NCBI GenBank assembly: GCA_903905445.1
Contig: CAIVGO010000249.1
Coordinates: 1 to 33,529 of the forward strand
Source: an uncultured Bacteroidota bacterium
GTDB lineage: Bacteria; Bacteroidota; Bacteroidia; Chitinophagales; Saprospiraceae
Length of the DNA stretch: 33,529 nucleotides
Direction: 5' to 3'
Of this stretch, positions 14,042 through 17,204 are shown in pieces. Position 1 is the stretch's first letter; every line of letters begins with the position of its first letter. A program made the position numbers and the translations under genes. The notes beneath the pieces were generated by a model. It saw nothing but the letters and a program-made list of their open reading frames with translations. It had not been told where the DNA came from and did no database searches.

Positions 14042-14506
14042 TTACTGCAATTCAATTTTTATCTCGGTGGGTATAAAAGGAGTTGCATCCGCTCCCCCTA
14101 CGATGATTTCCCGCACAATTGTACTGCTTATATGAGAAAATTCTGGCTGCGCAATCAAAAATACGGTTTCAATGCCGCCACCTACAATATGATTCAACTG
14201 CGAAATGGTCTTCTCATAATCAAAATCAGAAGCATTTCTAAGTCCGCGCAATAAGTACCGGGCACCGATCCGCTGACAGTAGTGGGCCGTCAAGTTTTGA
14301 AACTGATCTACCCCAACGGTAGGGTAACTTTCAAAAACAAGCCGCAACCACGCCAAACGTTGCTCAAGTGGAAACAAGTACTTTTTGGTGGAATTCACGC
14401 CAACCGCAATGATGATTTTATCAAAAAGCGGAAGTGCCCGCCTGACTAAATCAACGTGGCCCGTGGTAATCGGATCAAAAGACCCTGGGAAAACAGCAAT
14501 TTTCAT
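14042..14506 (-). CDS. coaD: Phosphopantetheine adenylyltransferase
   Basis: The 154-residue protein transfers AMP from ATP to 4'-phosphopantetheine, the penultimate step of coenzyme A synthesis, in the cytoplasm. It begins MKIAVFPGSFDPITTGH, with the nucleotidyltransferase (H/T)xGH motif as TTGH. RGLRNASDFDYE and ISSTIVRE match the conserved substrate and ATP sites of the family. The length is normal. The next gene on the strand, pruA, follows after 46 bp. No clear promoter was found upstream. Confidence 0.97.
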   Translation of the reverse strand: MKIAVFPGSFDPITTGHVDLVRRALPLFDKIIIAVGVNSTKKYLFPLEQRLAWLRLVFESYPTVGVDQFQNLTAHYCQRIGARYLLRGLRNASDFDYEKTISQLNHIVGGGIETVFLIAQPEFSHISSTIVREIIVGGADATPFIPTEIKIELQ

Positions 14507-14637
14507 AGAATCAACTTAAGATCGGGCGAAGTTCCGAATTTTACACCACGAAGCCAAAACACAACGCGCCAATTTGCAATCGCGTTAAAATGATCACAAA
14601 TTTTTCGCCCCTCAAACAAATAAACCATTTTATCGTC

Positions 14638-14645
14638 TAAATTTG
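14638..14645 (+). promoter_or_regulatory. Possible -7 element of the YqaE/TM2/DUF2752 cassette
   Basis: TAAATTTG fits TAnnTTTG and lies 84 bp before ATG 14730. No TTG is found at normal -33 spacing, so this is tentative. Confidence 0.35.
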
Positions 14646-14669
14646 CGCATCGGGTTCATTTGTAACCAG

Positions 14670-14702
14670 ACTCGGGCCGAAGCCGAAAAGCCCTAATCGA
14701 GT
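14670..14702 (+). promoter_or_regulatory. Leader hairpin before the membrane cassette
   Basis: ACTC-GGGC (14670-14677) can pair with GCCC-(TAATC)-GAGT (14690-14702), leaving a 12-base loop and a bulge. It would lie in the 5' leader if transcription starts near 14652. There is no T-run, so it may affect stability or translation rather than terminate. Confidence 0.3.
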
Positions 14703-14729
14703 AGGCGCTAAATTCTAATTAATTACTTT

Positions 14730-15209
14730 ATGAAACAACTCATCCTTTCGTTTGTATGCCTGTTGTTCGTTGCAACTATGGCAAATGCTGAAATTACAGC
14801 ATTGAACACCCCACTGTCTGAGTGCAACAGCGCTTCTGACATCAAAGCAATCGACCCACAGTTGGTGAAACTTGGAATGGACAAATTCCTTGAAATCACT
14901 CCTGCTGAGTACAAAAAAATCACAGGCAAACGCCTTGGTTTGAAAAACTCTTTGGCGCTGAAAGCTGCTCAGGTGAAAGTTAAACACGAGATGAAAAATG
15001 CTACGATCTCTCCTGTTGGAACAGCAGGAGACGGCATTACCAAGGGTGTTTACATCCTTTTAGCTATCTTTGGCCTCGCTTGGATCGCTATGGGCTTGAA
15101 ATCTGACTGGTCTGGTAATGACTGGATCGTTAACTTGATCCTGACTTTCCTTTGCTGGTTGCCTGGTTTGATCCACGCACTTGTTAAAATGAAAGACTAC
15201 TACAAGTAA
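14730..15209 (+). CDS. Exported protein with C-terminal YqaE/Pmp3 membrane domain
   Basis: The 159-residue protein has a signal peptide (MKQLILSFVCLLFVATMANA), a charged helical module (about residues 25-90), and a C-terminal two-helix membrane domain of the YqaE/Pmp3 type. The last is seen as WIVNLILTFLCWLPGLIHAL, where the family hallmark is N-x-x-L..W-x-PG-x-x-HA. Stand-alone YqaE proteins are about 50 residues, so this one carries an extra exported module. That module (MDKFLEITPAEYKKITGKRL) is shared with the TM2-domain protein at 15613-16101. A DUF2752 gene follows after 63 bp, which include a hairpin. Pmp3 relatives affect membrane potential and stress responses, but the role here is unknown. 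Confidence 0.8.
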   Translation: MKQLILSFVCLLFVATMANAEITALNTPLSECNSASDIKAIDPQLVKLGMDKFLEITPAEYKKITGKRLGLKNSLALKAAQVKVKHEMKNATISPVGTAGDGITKGVYILLAIFGLAWIAMGLKSDWSGNDWIVNLILTFLCWLPGLIHALVKMKDYYK

Positions 15210-15225
15210 TTTTTGTAAGTCCACC

Positions 15226-15256
15226 GCATTGGCGCGACCAACCGTCGCGCCAATGC
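15226..15256 (+). terminator. Strong hairpin between the YqaE and first DUF2752 genes
   Basis: GCATTGGCGCGAC (15226-15238) pairs perfectly with GTCGCGCCAATGC (15244-15256) across a 5-base loop. The following CCTTTTG is a poor T-run. It may be a weak or partial terminator that lowers expression of the downstream genes. Confidence 0.55.
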
Positions 15257-15272
15257 CTTTTGAAATGACAAT

Positions 15273-15599
15273 ATGAAAACCGGAAAGTTATTCGATTATG
15301 CATACTTGGTGTTTTTGATCCTAACACCGGTAATTGTATTGATTTTACCTGCGGACTATTTCGATTATGGTCCAACAATATGCCCTTCTAAGCGCTTTTT
15401 TGACATCGAATGCTTCGGCTGTGGCATGACAAGAGCAGTCATGCATCTGGTGCACCTCGACTTCGACAGCGCTATTTATTTTAATAAAGGAAGTTTACTG
15501 CTCGCACCTGTGCTGGGCGCCCTTTGGGTATTTTGGATCAAAAATGCCACCATCAAAGTATTGGAAAAGCCAACTCCTGCACCAACTGATCTTCATTAA
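15273..15599 (+). CDS. DUF2752 membrane protein (first copy)
   Basis: The 108-residue membrane protein has DUF2752 hallmarks: a first membrane helix (YLVFLILTPVIVLILPADYF), a cysteine block ECFGCGMTRAVMHL, and a second helix containing LLLAPVLGALWVFWI. A third cysteine lies in TICPSKRFF. Function is unknown for the family. It is clearly paralogous to the protein at 16085-16405 (LPAD[YF]FD.G.[TS]IC and EC..CG[ML]TRA[VL]MHL[VI]H). It lies between the YqaE-domain and TM2-domain genes; the TM2-protein ATG follows 13 bp after its stop. Confidence 0.85.
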   Translation: MKTGKLFDYAYLVFLILTPVIVLILPADYFDYGPTICPSKRFFDIECFGCGMTRAVMHLVHLDFDSAIYFNKGSLLLAPVLGALWVFWIKNATIKVLEKPTPAPTDLH

Positions 15600-15612
15600 A
15601 ATTTTCCAGTCT

Positions 15613-16101
15613 ATGAAACACTTGATTATGCTGACATTCCTCGGAATGTTCCTTACTCCCATGTTTGCGAATACCGCAGCAAACTATTCCAGCGCACAAC
15701 TTGCCATAAAAGTTAAGGAATCTGGCCTCCCTGCTCAAATAAGCCAAATGTCTGTTGAGCAATTTATCGCCTTAACGCCAACCCAGGTAAAAAATATGAC
15801 TGGGGAACGCATGCGCTTTAAGGATATTGTTGCCCTAAAAAGCATTCAAAAAGCAGTAAAAAAAGAAATCGCACAGGAAGGAAATGCCGCTGGAGGCAAA
15901 AGCCAACTAGTTGCTCTACTACTGGTTATTTTTGTGGGTGTTTTTGGAATTCACCGGTCCTACCTTGGATATCCTTTAATTGGGTTCCTTCAACTCATTA
16001 CACTTGGTTTTTGCGGTATCGGAACACTGATTGATTTCTTCCGAATCATTTTTGGCGATTTAAAACCAAGTCGCGGCAGAGAATATGACCCTGCATTCTA
16101 A
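15613..16101 (+). CDS. Exported protein with C-terminal TM2 domain
   Basis: I chose ATG 15613 because it starts a signal peptide (MKHLIMLTFLGMFLTPMFA). The frame extends upstream to an ATG at 15544, but that segment overlaps the preceding gene and lacks signal character. The 162-residue product has a helical exported module (VEQFIALTPTQVKNMTGERM) like that of the YqaE protein, then a TM2 domain: LLLVIFVGVFGIHRSYLGY with the GxxGxHRxYLG signature, and FLQLITLGFCGIGTLIDF. TM2 proteins are small membrane proteins of mostly unknown function. The stop overlaps the start of the next DUF2752 gene by 17 bp, which implies translational coupling. Confidence 0.82.
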   Translation: MKHLIMLTFLGMFLTPMFANTAANYSSAQLAIKVKESGLPAQISQMSVEQFIALTPTQVKNMTGERMRFKDIVALKSIQKAVKKEIAQEGNAAGGKSQLVALLLVIFVGVFGIHRSYLGYPLIGFLQLITLGFCGIGTLIDFFRIIFGDLKPSRGREYDPAF

Positions 16102-16405
16102 ATATCTAAAAATTTGGCGCTACCTGCGCATCCTGTTCTGGATCATCGTGCCGGTAATACTCCTCGTATTACCGGCCGATTTTTTTGACCAAGGCCAATC
16201 AATTTGCCTGTCTATTCTATTATTTAAGCAGGAATGCTATGCTTGTGGACTAACCCGGGCACTGATGCACCTGATCCACTTCGAGTTTGCTGAAGCATAC
16301 TACTATAATATACTTGCATTTATCGTATTCCCCCTACTCGCCTACCAATGGGCCCTTTGGTTTTGGGACGATTGGAAAAAACTTAAACTTACTCGGGCTT
16401 CCTAA
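16085..16405 (+). CDS. DUF2752 membrane protein (second copy)
   Basis: The 106-residue paralogue of the protein at 15273-15599 keeps the same layout: helix ILFWIIVPVILLVLPADFF, cysteine block ECYACGLTRALMHLIHFEF, and a second helix FIVFPLLAYQWALWF. It starts inside the TM2 gene (17-bp overlap). Its TAA (16403-16405) interleaves with the TAG of the convergent 80-residue gene, so no terminator fits between the plus-strand cassette and the minus-strand respiratory block. Function is unknown. Confidence 0.85.
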   Translation: MTLHSKYLKIWRYLRILFWIIVPVILLVLPADFFDQGQSICLSILLFKQECYACGLTRALMHLIHFEFAEAYYYNILAFIVFPLLAYQWALWFWDDWKKLKLTRAS

Positions 16406-16644
16406 TCCTGTTTCCGGTTGCGCCACCACCAAATTGCAATGCCGCCTACAATCAAATAAGGAAGGGAAAGCATATACAAAATACCGGCATTCAACCCAAC
16501 TGGATCGCCACCACCGGCCTTCAAATTCGACTCTGAAGACGCCTTACACATTGCACATTGCGCAAAAAGGGGATCCGAAAGCGCCGCGATCATCAACAAA
16601 ATCACAACGAGCACAGAAATTTTAAATAACTGACTGGTCTGCAT
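16402..16644 (-). CDS. Small membrane protein with CAMC motif, last gene of respiratory block
   Basis: The 80-residue protein has a hydrophobic N-terminal helix or signal peptide (LFKISVLVVILLMIAALSDP), then QCAMCKASSESN, a Gly-rich turn, LNAGILYMLSLPYLIVGGIAIWWW and a basic tail RNRKQD. The CxxC placed just after the first helix would face the periplasm and could bind copper or take part in thiol exchange. It follows the DUF420 gene by 32 bp at the end of an oxidase cluster, so an assembly or accessory role is a reasonable inference. I do not know an established family name. Confidence 0.7.
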   Translation of the reverse strand: MQTSQLFKISVLVVILLMIAALSDPLFAQCAMCKASSESNLKAGGGDPVGLNAGILYMLSLPYLIVGGIAIWWWRNRKQD

Positions 16645-16676
16645 AGTTTATCAATTTTAAAGTGAGCAGTGCTTGC

Positions 16677-17204
16677 CTATTTATAATAAGGCATCAGCAT
16701 CAGGTAACATATTGGGCCTGTCACGGCAACGTATAGCCAAATTGGGAAAACCCAACGCGCCATCTTGCGGTGGCGCTCAAACTGATTGGTGTAGGCGCGA
16801 ATGAAGGTCAACAAAATAAAAGGTAAGGACGTTGCCGCTAAAAAAATATGCGTCAACAATAGGAAAAAGTAAACTACCCGTAGCGACCCTTCACCTCCAT
16901 AACGCGTTTCTGGCGTCGTAAAATGATAGAGCACATACGACAACAAAAACAAACCCGAGGTGACCATAGCCACGTAAATAGCCTTACGATGGTTTTCAAC
17001 CTGCTTGTTTTTGATAAAATAAAGCGCAACAAGCAAAATGACGGCGGTAAGAGCGTTCAGACTCGCATGAAAGGGCGGCAGAAAACTAAAATCTACCCCT
17101 AAATCTATTTTGTAGCGACGCATGGCCACCACCAGCAAAAGCACCGCCGCAGAAACGATATAGGCTACGGTGTTTAATTTCTTTTCCAACTGAATATCAG
17201 CCAT
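16677..17204 (-). CDS. DUF420 membrane protein, likely oxidase assembly factor (CtaM-like)
   Basis: ATG 17204 (MADIQLEKKLN) is preferred, since the frame upstream offers only a TTG. The 175-residue protein has about five membrane helices, including VAYIVSAAVLLLVVAMRR, ALTAVILLVALYFI and WVFPIWLYVAVTGPICYLML. It has the histidine pattern of DUF420: FHASLNA, NHRKAIY, LYHFTTPE, LLLTHIFLAA. The family includes YozB/CtaM, reported to be needed for assembly of certain haem-copper oxidases in Firmicutes. Its place after SCO-like and oxidase genes supports a similar role here, but this is inference. Confidence 0.82.
   Translation of the reverse strand: MADIQLEKKLNTVAYIVSAAVLLLVVAMRRYKIDLGVDFSFLPPFHASLNALTAVILLVALYFIKNKQVENHRKAIYVAMVTSGLFLLSYVLYHFTTPETRYGGEGSLRVVYFFLLLTHIFLAATSLPFILLTFIRAYTNQFERHRKMARWVFPIWLYVAVTGPICYLMLMPYYK

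Follow-up and report, generated by a model that had tools for sequence, protein, structure and literature searches.

Tandem hairpin-DUF2752 gene pairs in a Saprospiraceae genome and the cysteine-bearing membrane partners of DUF2752

A four-gene membrane array and its history

The window, by which is meant the whole stretch of 33,529 nucleotides analysed here, corresponds to contig C249 in a draft genome of 5.86 Mb that is 95% complete. Between 14730 and 16405, all on the + strand, it carries four genes, which encode in order a protein with a signal peptide, a module and a Pmp3 domain, a DUF2752 protein, a protein with a signal peptide, the module and a TM2 domain, and a second DUF2752 protein. 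The features of this array are as follows.

14730..15209, + strand: exported hairpin protein of cassette 1, open reading frame intact, Pfam Pmp3; signal peptide about 14730-14789 (by eye), module about 14832-14993, Pmp3/YqaE hairpin about 15042-15206
15153-15155, + strand: codon of the hairpin cysteine of cassette 1
15226..15256, + strand: stem-loop of 13 pairs followed by CTTTT, -26.9 kcal/mol, between the Pmp3 gene and the first DUF2752 gene
15273..15599, + strand: DUF2752 protein of cassette 1, 108 aa; cysteine codons starting at 15381, 15411 and 15420
15613..16101, + strand: exported hairpin protein of cassette 2, with signal peptide (by eye), module and TM2 hairpin
16012-16014, + strand: codon of the hairpin cysteine of cassette 2
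16085..16405, + strand: DUF2752 protein of cassette 2, 106 aa; cysteine codons starting at 16205, 16235 and 16244
16150..16176, + strand: 11-pair stem-loop with a T run after it, lying within the beginning of the second DUF2752 gene (terminator scan)

The two-cassette layout described in an earlier note on this DNA is borne out, because the open reading frames are intact and the Pfam cut-offs are passed by Pmp3 (PF01679; 34.4 bits against 22.9, E 2.1e-8), by TM2 (PF05154; 56.8 bits against 27.9, E 2.6e-15) and by both copies of DUF2752 (PF10825; 59.7 and 52.4 bits against 27, E 3e-16 and 5.4e-14). The common module of the two exported proteins (BLASTP 31% over 115 aa, E 3e-13, signal peptide included) and the paralogy of the DUF2752 copies (BLASTP 45% over 87 aa, E 5e-30), both claimed in that note, are likewise found. 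The profile comparison that it had proposed, with the module alone, gave 99.8% probability between the Pmp3-type and TM2-type sets; because both module types had seeded the model used to collect these sets, the BLASTP match is the sole fully independent one for the module. The tight spacing noted before applies to the 13-bp gap between the cassettes and to the 17 bp by which the second DUF2752 gene overlaps the TM2 gene, but the 63 bp between the Pmp3 gene and the first DUF2752 gene had gone unmentioned.

On the - strand, at 16402-16644, the window encodes a small protein with a CAMCK motif and without a Pfam match, whose neighbours are DUF420 and, by eye, cytochrome oxidase-like genes. A third DUF2752 gene of the same genome lies on contig C264 (locus L013, 1050-1788), after a TM2 protein without an obvious signal peptide.

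Among the loci examined, the window shares the four-gene order with a single congeneric relative, recorded twice (L062 and L180). The latter, a Saprospiraceae metagenome-assembled genome, is the closest named relative among the best 80 of 395 loci, with a first DUF2752 that is 96% identical; this genome scan may lack records that are very close to the window's own genome. According to the earlier note, the array arose by local duplication of one two-gene unit and a subsequent swap of the C-terminal tail, as the common module and the paralogous DUF2752 copies might suggest. The DUF2752 phylogeny argues against this history. In a tree of 96 DUF2752 sequences, the first window copy branches with copies of the same genus that have a Pmp3 partner (support 90), and the second lies within a set of TM2-partnered sequences from other genera (support 91). 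Partners cluster strongly on this tree: the label needs 8 changes, compared with 21.1 in shuffles (0 of 500 as low), and the starred branches force at least 2 partner changes elsewhere. A single clade of the four array-type DUF2752 was rejected (AU p 0.00057, from 57 of 99 rows and a quick tree, in a test run after the first tree had been seen). Since the DUF2752 copies group by partner and the single clade is rejected, two already distinct cassettes were brought side by side, and local duplication with a tail swap is extremely improbable. Judged from the sequences, the array appears to hold two copies, inherited separately, of a two-gene membrane unit that is conserved.

Tails of the exported module and partners of DUF2752

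With a search model built from six module segments, the module was found in 100 of 298 genomes of the family (E up to 0.001), but only 4 of 148 genomes sampled from the whole phylum have it, with a weak match in two of these (E up to 0.01). The 119 regions fetched, together with the window, gave 128 module proteins, which end in Pmp3 (54), TM2 (15) or another tail (59). When 58 of the 59 other-tail proteins were compared with Pfam, one cut by a contig end being left out, DUF4190 was recognized in 13 of the 58 and another Pfam family in at most 5 more. The module also stands before many hydrophobic tails without a Pfam match (of the GFLLGLFLGLIGVLIA type), for example in L101, L116 and L131. 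The module is modelled by AlphaFold2 as confident helices (mean confidence about 88-94 over model residues 11-70). Its profile matched two chains of solved structures with E about 1e-8, HeliScrew4 and CAP REPEAT, which, going by their names, are presumably designed helical repeats; the 23 weaker matches were mostly to ribosomal proteins. The module, with its diverse tails, is an undescribed exported domain family.

Among module proteins, 42 of the 54 with Pmp3, 11 of the 15 with TM2 and 1 of the 59 with other tails are closely followed by DUF2752 (-60 to 400 bp, same strand), some of the misses falling near contig ends. The sole other-tail case, L083, carries a divergent Pmp3 as its tail, and L173, also an other-tail protein, has DUF2752 on the other strand. 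A genome scan with type-C DUF2752 turned up 395 relatives. The 80 best loci, a sample that was selected for its resemblance to the window copy and that overlaps the family set, contain 81 DUF2752, of which 74 come after a Pmp3 or TM2 protein. Upstream of these 81 are 39 module-Pmp3 and 7 module-TM2 proteins, 17 TM2 and 11 Pmp3 proteins without a recognisable module (28 of 81), 1 truncated module protein and, in 6 cases, none; of the latter, L204 and L235 lie at the end of a contig, and in L239 Pmp3 stands downstream. The earlier proposal that the exported module is paired with DUF2752 is therefore only partly upheld: the module does join different C-terminal membrane domains, but it is not what DUF2752 pairs with. 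Because DUF2752 is nearly absent after other-tail module proteins, the module is better regarded as a more general exported helical domain.

The pairing with hairpin proteins extends beyond the family. The neighbourhood survey called for by the earlier note, in 198 genomes of the phylum, places TM2 beside 75 of 117 DUF2752 and DUF2752 beside 74 of 142 TM2 (within 900 bp, same strand). In 89 fetched loci of this survey, 88 distinct DUF2752 were counted (from 90 rows, one place having been fetched twice), of which 53 adjoin TM2, 17 adjoin a CD225 or CCC-motif protein and 18 adjoin neither; 14 of these 18 were examined, and a DUF4234 protein adjoins two and a DUF5684 protein another two. CD225 occurs in 2 of the 198 genomes, by coordinates beside DUF2752 both times, and was not found in the window's own genome. 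Three family loci (L010, L012 and L024) share the order TM2, DUF2752, DUF4870-like protein and M48-like peptidase, TM2 and DUF4870 being Pfam-checked in L010 and the rest assigned by eye. At one place (recorded as both L303 and L351), a CCC-type gene lies between two DUF2752 genes.

A type-A DUF2752 query matched seven records of a plasmid collection, six of which were read. DUF2752 was confirmed by Pfam in all six, and in three of them, outside the phylum, a recognisable partner stands just before it: CD225 in Nonomuraea, TM2 in Subdoligranulum and DUF4234 in Paenibacillus. With these three cases, the pairing is found in Bacteroidota, Actinomycetota and Bacillota. In Tsukamurella, DUF2752 is preceded by a membrane protein that matches no Pfam family, and no partner was recognized in the Nocardia and Streptomyces records, the Streptomyces DUF2752 being degenerate by eye. 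Plasmids yielded no relatives of the window DUF2752, and viral contigs yielded none of type-C DUF2752 or the module. It is well supported that the constant element is the pair of hairpin protein and DUF2752, in which the hairpins are interchangeable. In the open-licence literature, no paper was found on DUF2752 or PF10825, on the 'CCC motif membrane protein', or treating at least two of DUF4870, the TM2 domain and DUF4190 together.

Cysteines and stem-loops of the pair

The hairpin cysteine co-occurs with DUF2752. Among exported Pmp3 proteins, it is present in 67 and absent in 2 of those scored as DUF2752 partners, and present in 2 and absent in 12 of the others, after a correction by hand; before this correction the counts were 66 and 2 versus 5 and 11 (Fisher 1.6e-8). 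The correction was made after the discordant rows had been seen: tandem row L117 was left out, L239 was set as paired (its gene order is reversed and there is no other hairpin), the first copy of L214 was set as lacking the motif cysteine, and the downstream copies of L099 and L081 were kept as unpaired. The last two sit just downstream of a DUF2752 that already has an upstream hairpin and, if counted as partners, change the figures to 67 and 4 versus 2 and 10. For these cysteine counts, rows without DUF2752 and with less than 500 bp of flank were dropped and near-duplicates were merged.

The other hairpin families show a similar distribution. In free Pmp3 proteins the cysteine is absent in 22 of 23, and of 70 TM2 proteins beside DUF2752, 68 have it (three on the strength of a reading by eye), L096 and L302 being the exceptions. 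The 29 TM2 proteins scored as not beside DUF2752 largely resemble other subfamilies: 9 are without the cysteine, 15 are without a readable motif and 5 have one nearby, and L312, one of these 5, in fact adjoins DUF2752. In CD225 and CCC proteins the cysteine is found in 28 of 28, of which 27 were scored as adjacent to DUF2752, and a di-cysteine in 27 of 28. In the arrays L099, L081 and L214 the cysteine is kept in the copy just upstream of DUF2752 and is missing in the further copies; L117 and L186 have it in both hairpins. It is present without an adjacent DUF2752 in the Pmp3 proteins L127 and L135 and in the TM2 protein L090.

Common ancestry may account for part of this correlation. The two traits change 12 and 13 times on a tree of short sequences with weak forks, and a phylogeny-corrected test, which was underpowered, gave three independent pairs on supported branches (2.4 agreeing on average, 0 opposing), a result that is not significant, as was that of an earlier scoring with five independent pairs. 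Because profile comparison of the Pmp3, TM2 and CD225/CCC sets gave at most 5.4% probability, and hence no detectable relatedness among these three, the cysteine common to the partners is not explained by a detectable common ancestor.

DUF2752 itself has three near-invariant cysteines (C...C..CG), located between two long helices. They are present in 56, 55 and 56 of the 56 rows of the family set, and all three are found in 201 of 213 distinct DUF2752 domains, including both window copies; 5 of the other 12 domains are incomplete. The third cysteine is replaced only by D, E or H, in six domains, and these replacements would suit metal binding. In the six loci concerned (L365, L368, L373, L376, L377 and L378), the TM2 neighbour keeps its own cysteine. 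Three type-C DUF2752 (L104, L109 and L096) face a partner without the cysteine, and two of them have lost the threonine after CGx: beside Pmp3 partners lacking the cysteine, L104 has T changed to F, and L109 has C changed to Y and T to I. This threonine is lost in 0 of 52 other rows of the family set, the distant L173 being left out.

The stem-loop at 15226..15256 (z -5.8 against dinucleotide shuffles) is terminator- or attenuator-like, and was missed by the terminator scan, whose rule for the tail it does not follow. Because only 16 nt are left after this stem, the first DUF2752 gene probably needs read-through and its product would be made in smaller amounts. Comparable folds (z below -3) occur in 42 of 54 distinct hairpin-DUF2752 gaps of 45-220 nt and in 37 of 160 control gaps, drawn from 251 between other same-strand ORFs of the same loci (Fisher 1.3e-12; mononucleotide shuffles in both sets, ORFs called mechanically); a stricter terminator-like pattern occurs in 26 of 54 and 29 of 160, respectively. 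Strong folds are found in 39 of 46 Pmp3 gaps and 3 of 8 TM2 gaps, many TM2 pairs overlapping, which leaves the case for unequal amounts weak in TM2 pairs, and several flavobacterial-type pairs with gaps of 36-45 nt have no fold. The second stem of the window, at 16150..16176, is identical in the near relative L062; the terminator scan gave three such sites in the stretch, compared with 2.4 expected by chance. A stem at this place within DUF2752 is found in 6 of 42 TM2-partnered and 4 of 72 Pmp3-partnered genes (near-duplicates included), compared with less than 1% of codon-shuffled copies. No promoter was detected by a scan of 14500-16700, where chance alone would give 4.2. In Pmp3 pairs, the stem-loops suggest that less DUF2752 than hairpin protein is made.

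Possible function and known relatives

In the model that we tentatively prefer, and to which we give nearly even chances, the cysteine hairpin and DUF2752 form a two-gene unit in which DUF2752 would be a scarcer maturation or assembly partner acting on the hairpin cysteine. The product of the first gene would be a small hairpin protein, of Pmp3 or TM2 type in this case, with a cysteine within a membrane helix; in the window, a signal peptide and a folded helical module would precede the hairpin, and the protein would be exported. In Pmp3 pairs the hairpin would be the abundant component. DUF2752 would work through its three-cysteine site, probably by metal-thiolate or thiol-handling chemistry, and its target would be the hairpin cysteine, for which it may serve as a maturation or assembly factor.

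The main rival to this maturation model is a stoichiometric complex, in which DUF2752 and the hairpin would together form an assembly that resembles a channel or modulates the membrane potential, with one structural metal site shared by all four cysteines. The sum of three DUF2752 cysteines and one hairpin cysteine, the D, E or H replacements of the third DUF2752 cysteine, and the short or overlapping spacing of many TM2 pairs are consistent with such a complex, as is the role of Pmp3 proteins, in yeast and among E. coli relatives, in membrane-potential modulation or salt tolerance, as reported in PMC7835403. The intergenic stem-loops, however, speak against equal amounts of the two proteins in Pmp3 pairs. 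Exported and non-exported TM2 proteins should moreover have opposite topologies, yet DUF2752 pairs with both, and a fused-chain model of hairpin and DUF2752 (pLDDT 84, pTM 0.53) lends no support to a contact, a point against the maturation model as well. A complex of this kind is thus unlikely. A structure search with the fused model returned 19 matches with E up to 10 and none at or below 0.001, and DUF2752 had no convincing match among solved structures (one match, E 0.42). The mean charges of exported Pmp3 proteins (+4.2 before helix 1 and -1.5 in the loop, at crude fixed offsets) run counter to the orientation implied by a cleaved signal peptide and fit an exported topology poorly, which weighs against the maturation model.

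DUF2752 might instead add or remove a lipid at the hairpin cysteine, by analogy with S-palmitoylation of the IFITM (CD225) di-cysteine in animal cells. The di-cysteine kept in nearly all CD225 and CCC partners would agree with this, and two mycobacterial IFITMs were S-palmitoylated, one of them weakly and without a di-cysteine (PMC4488726), although this took place in human cells. DUF2752 matches no transferase family and the D, E or H replacements are ill-suited to a catalytic cysteine, which makes thiol acylation quite improbable. Still less probable, to a degree that leaves it hardly credible, is an exported toxin with DUF2752 as its immunity protein: a small hydrophobic exported protein beside a small membrane protein, in tandem copies, would fit, but DUF2752 is likewise paired with non-exported TM2, CD225 and CCC proteins, in which no signal peptide was recognized by eye, the four window proteins have no match in an anti-phage defence library, and no related locus was found in the viral contigs.

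Beyond the maturation model for the two-gene unit, DUF2752 could be the constant half of a bacteria-wide two-part membrane device, whose three-cysteine site services, or shares a metal with, the single membrane cysteine of whichever family is plugged in (TM2, Pmp3, CD225/IFITM, CCC, DUF4234 or DUF5684). This generalization is possible, though we regard it as rather doubtful. If it is true, these six families would have one biochemical step in common, and IFITM and TM2D relatives in bacteria would have a partner of their own. The families TM2, Pmp3, CD225 and DUF2752 are widespread, with no settled molecular role in bacteria, and a single rule, a cysteine hairpin with a three-cysteine DUF2752, makes their function testable. 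DUF2752 is a possible bacterial partner of IFITM-like and TM2D-like proteins, for which the resemblances serve as leads and not as tests.

Each of the known families differs in some respect from the window proteins. The CCC motif membrane protein (NF040945, PF07666; named from one representative) is also a DUF2752 neighbour with conserved cysteines, but belongs to a different Pfam family, with no signal peptide seen by eye. CD225/IFITM proteins (dispanins) are likewise a hairpin family that adjoins DUF2752, with a conserved di-cysteine, and have no significant profile similarity to Pmp3 or TM2. The window protein of cassette 1 shares with Pmp3/YqaE (PF01679) the two-helix hairpin domain, and is distinguished from free Pmp3 by its signal peptide, folded module, hairpin cysteine and DUF2752 partner. 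Animal TM2D proteins have a signal sequence, a variable outer region, two helices and a short tail, according to PMC8714088, and the layout of the window TM2 protein is by eye like that of TM2D1-3 as described there, with a putative signal sequence, an outer region and TM2 near the C-terminus. In place of the DRF loop motif of the animal proteins, its loop reads GIHRSYLG (HRS), and, unlike TM2D, the window protein has a recognisable bacterial module as its outer region and DUF2752 as its partner.
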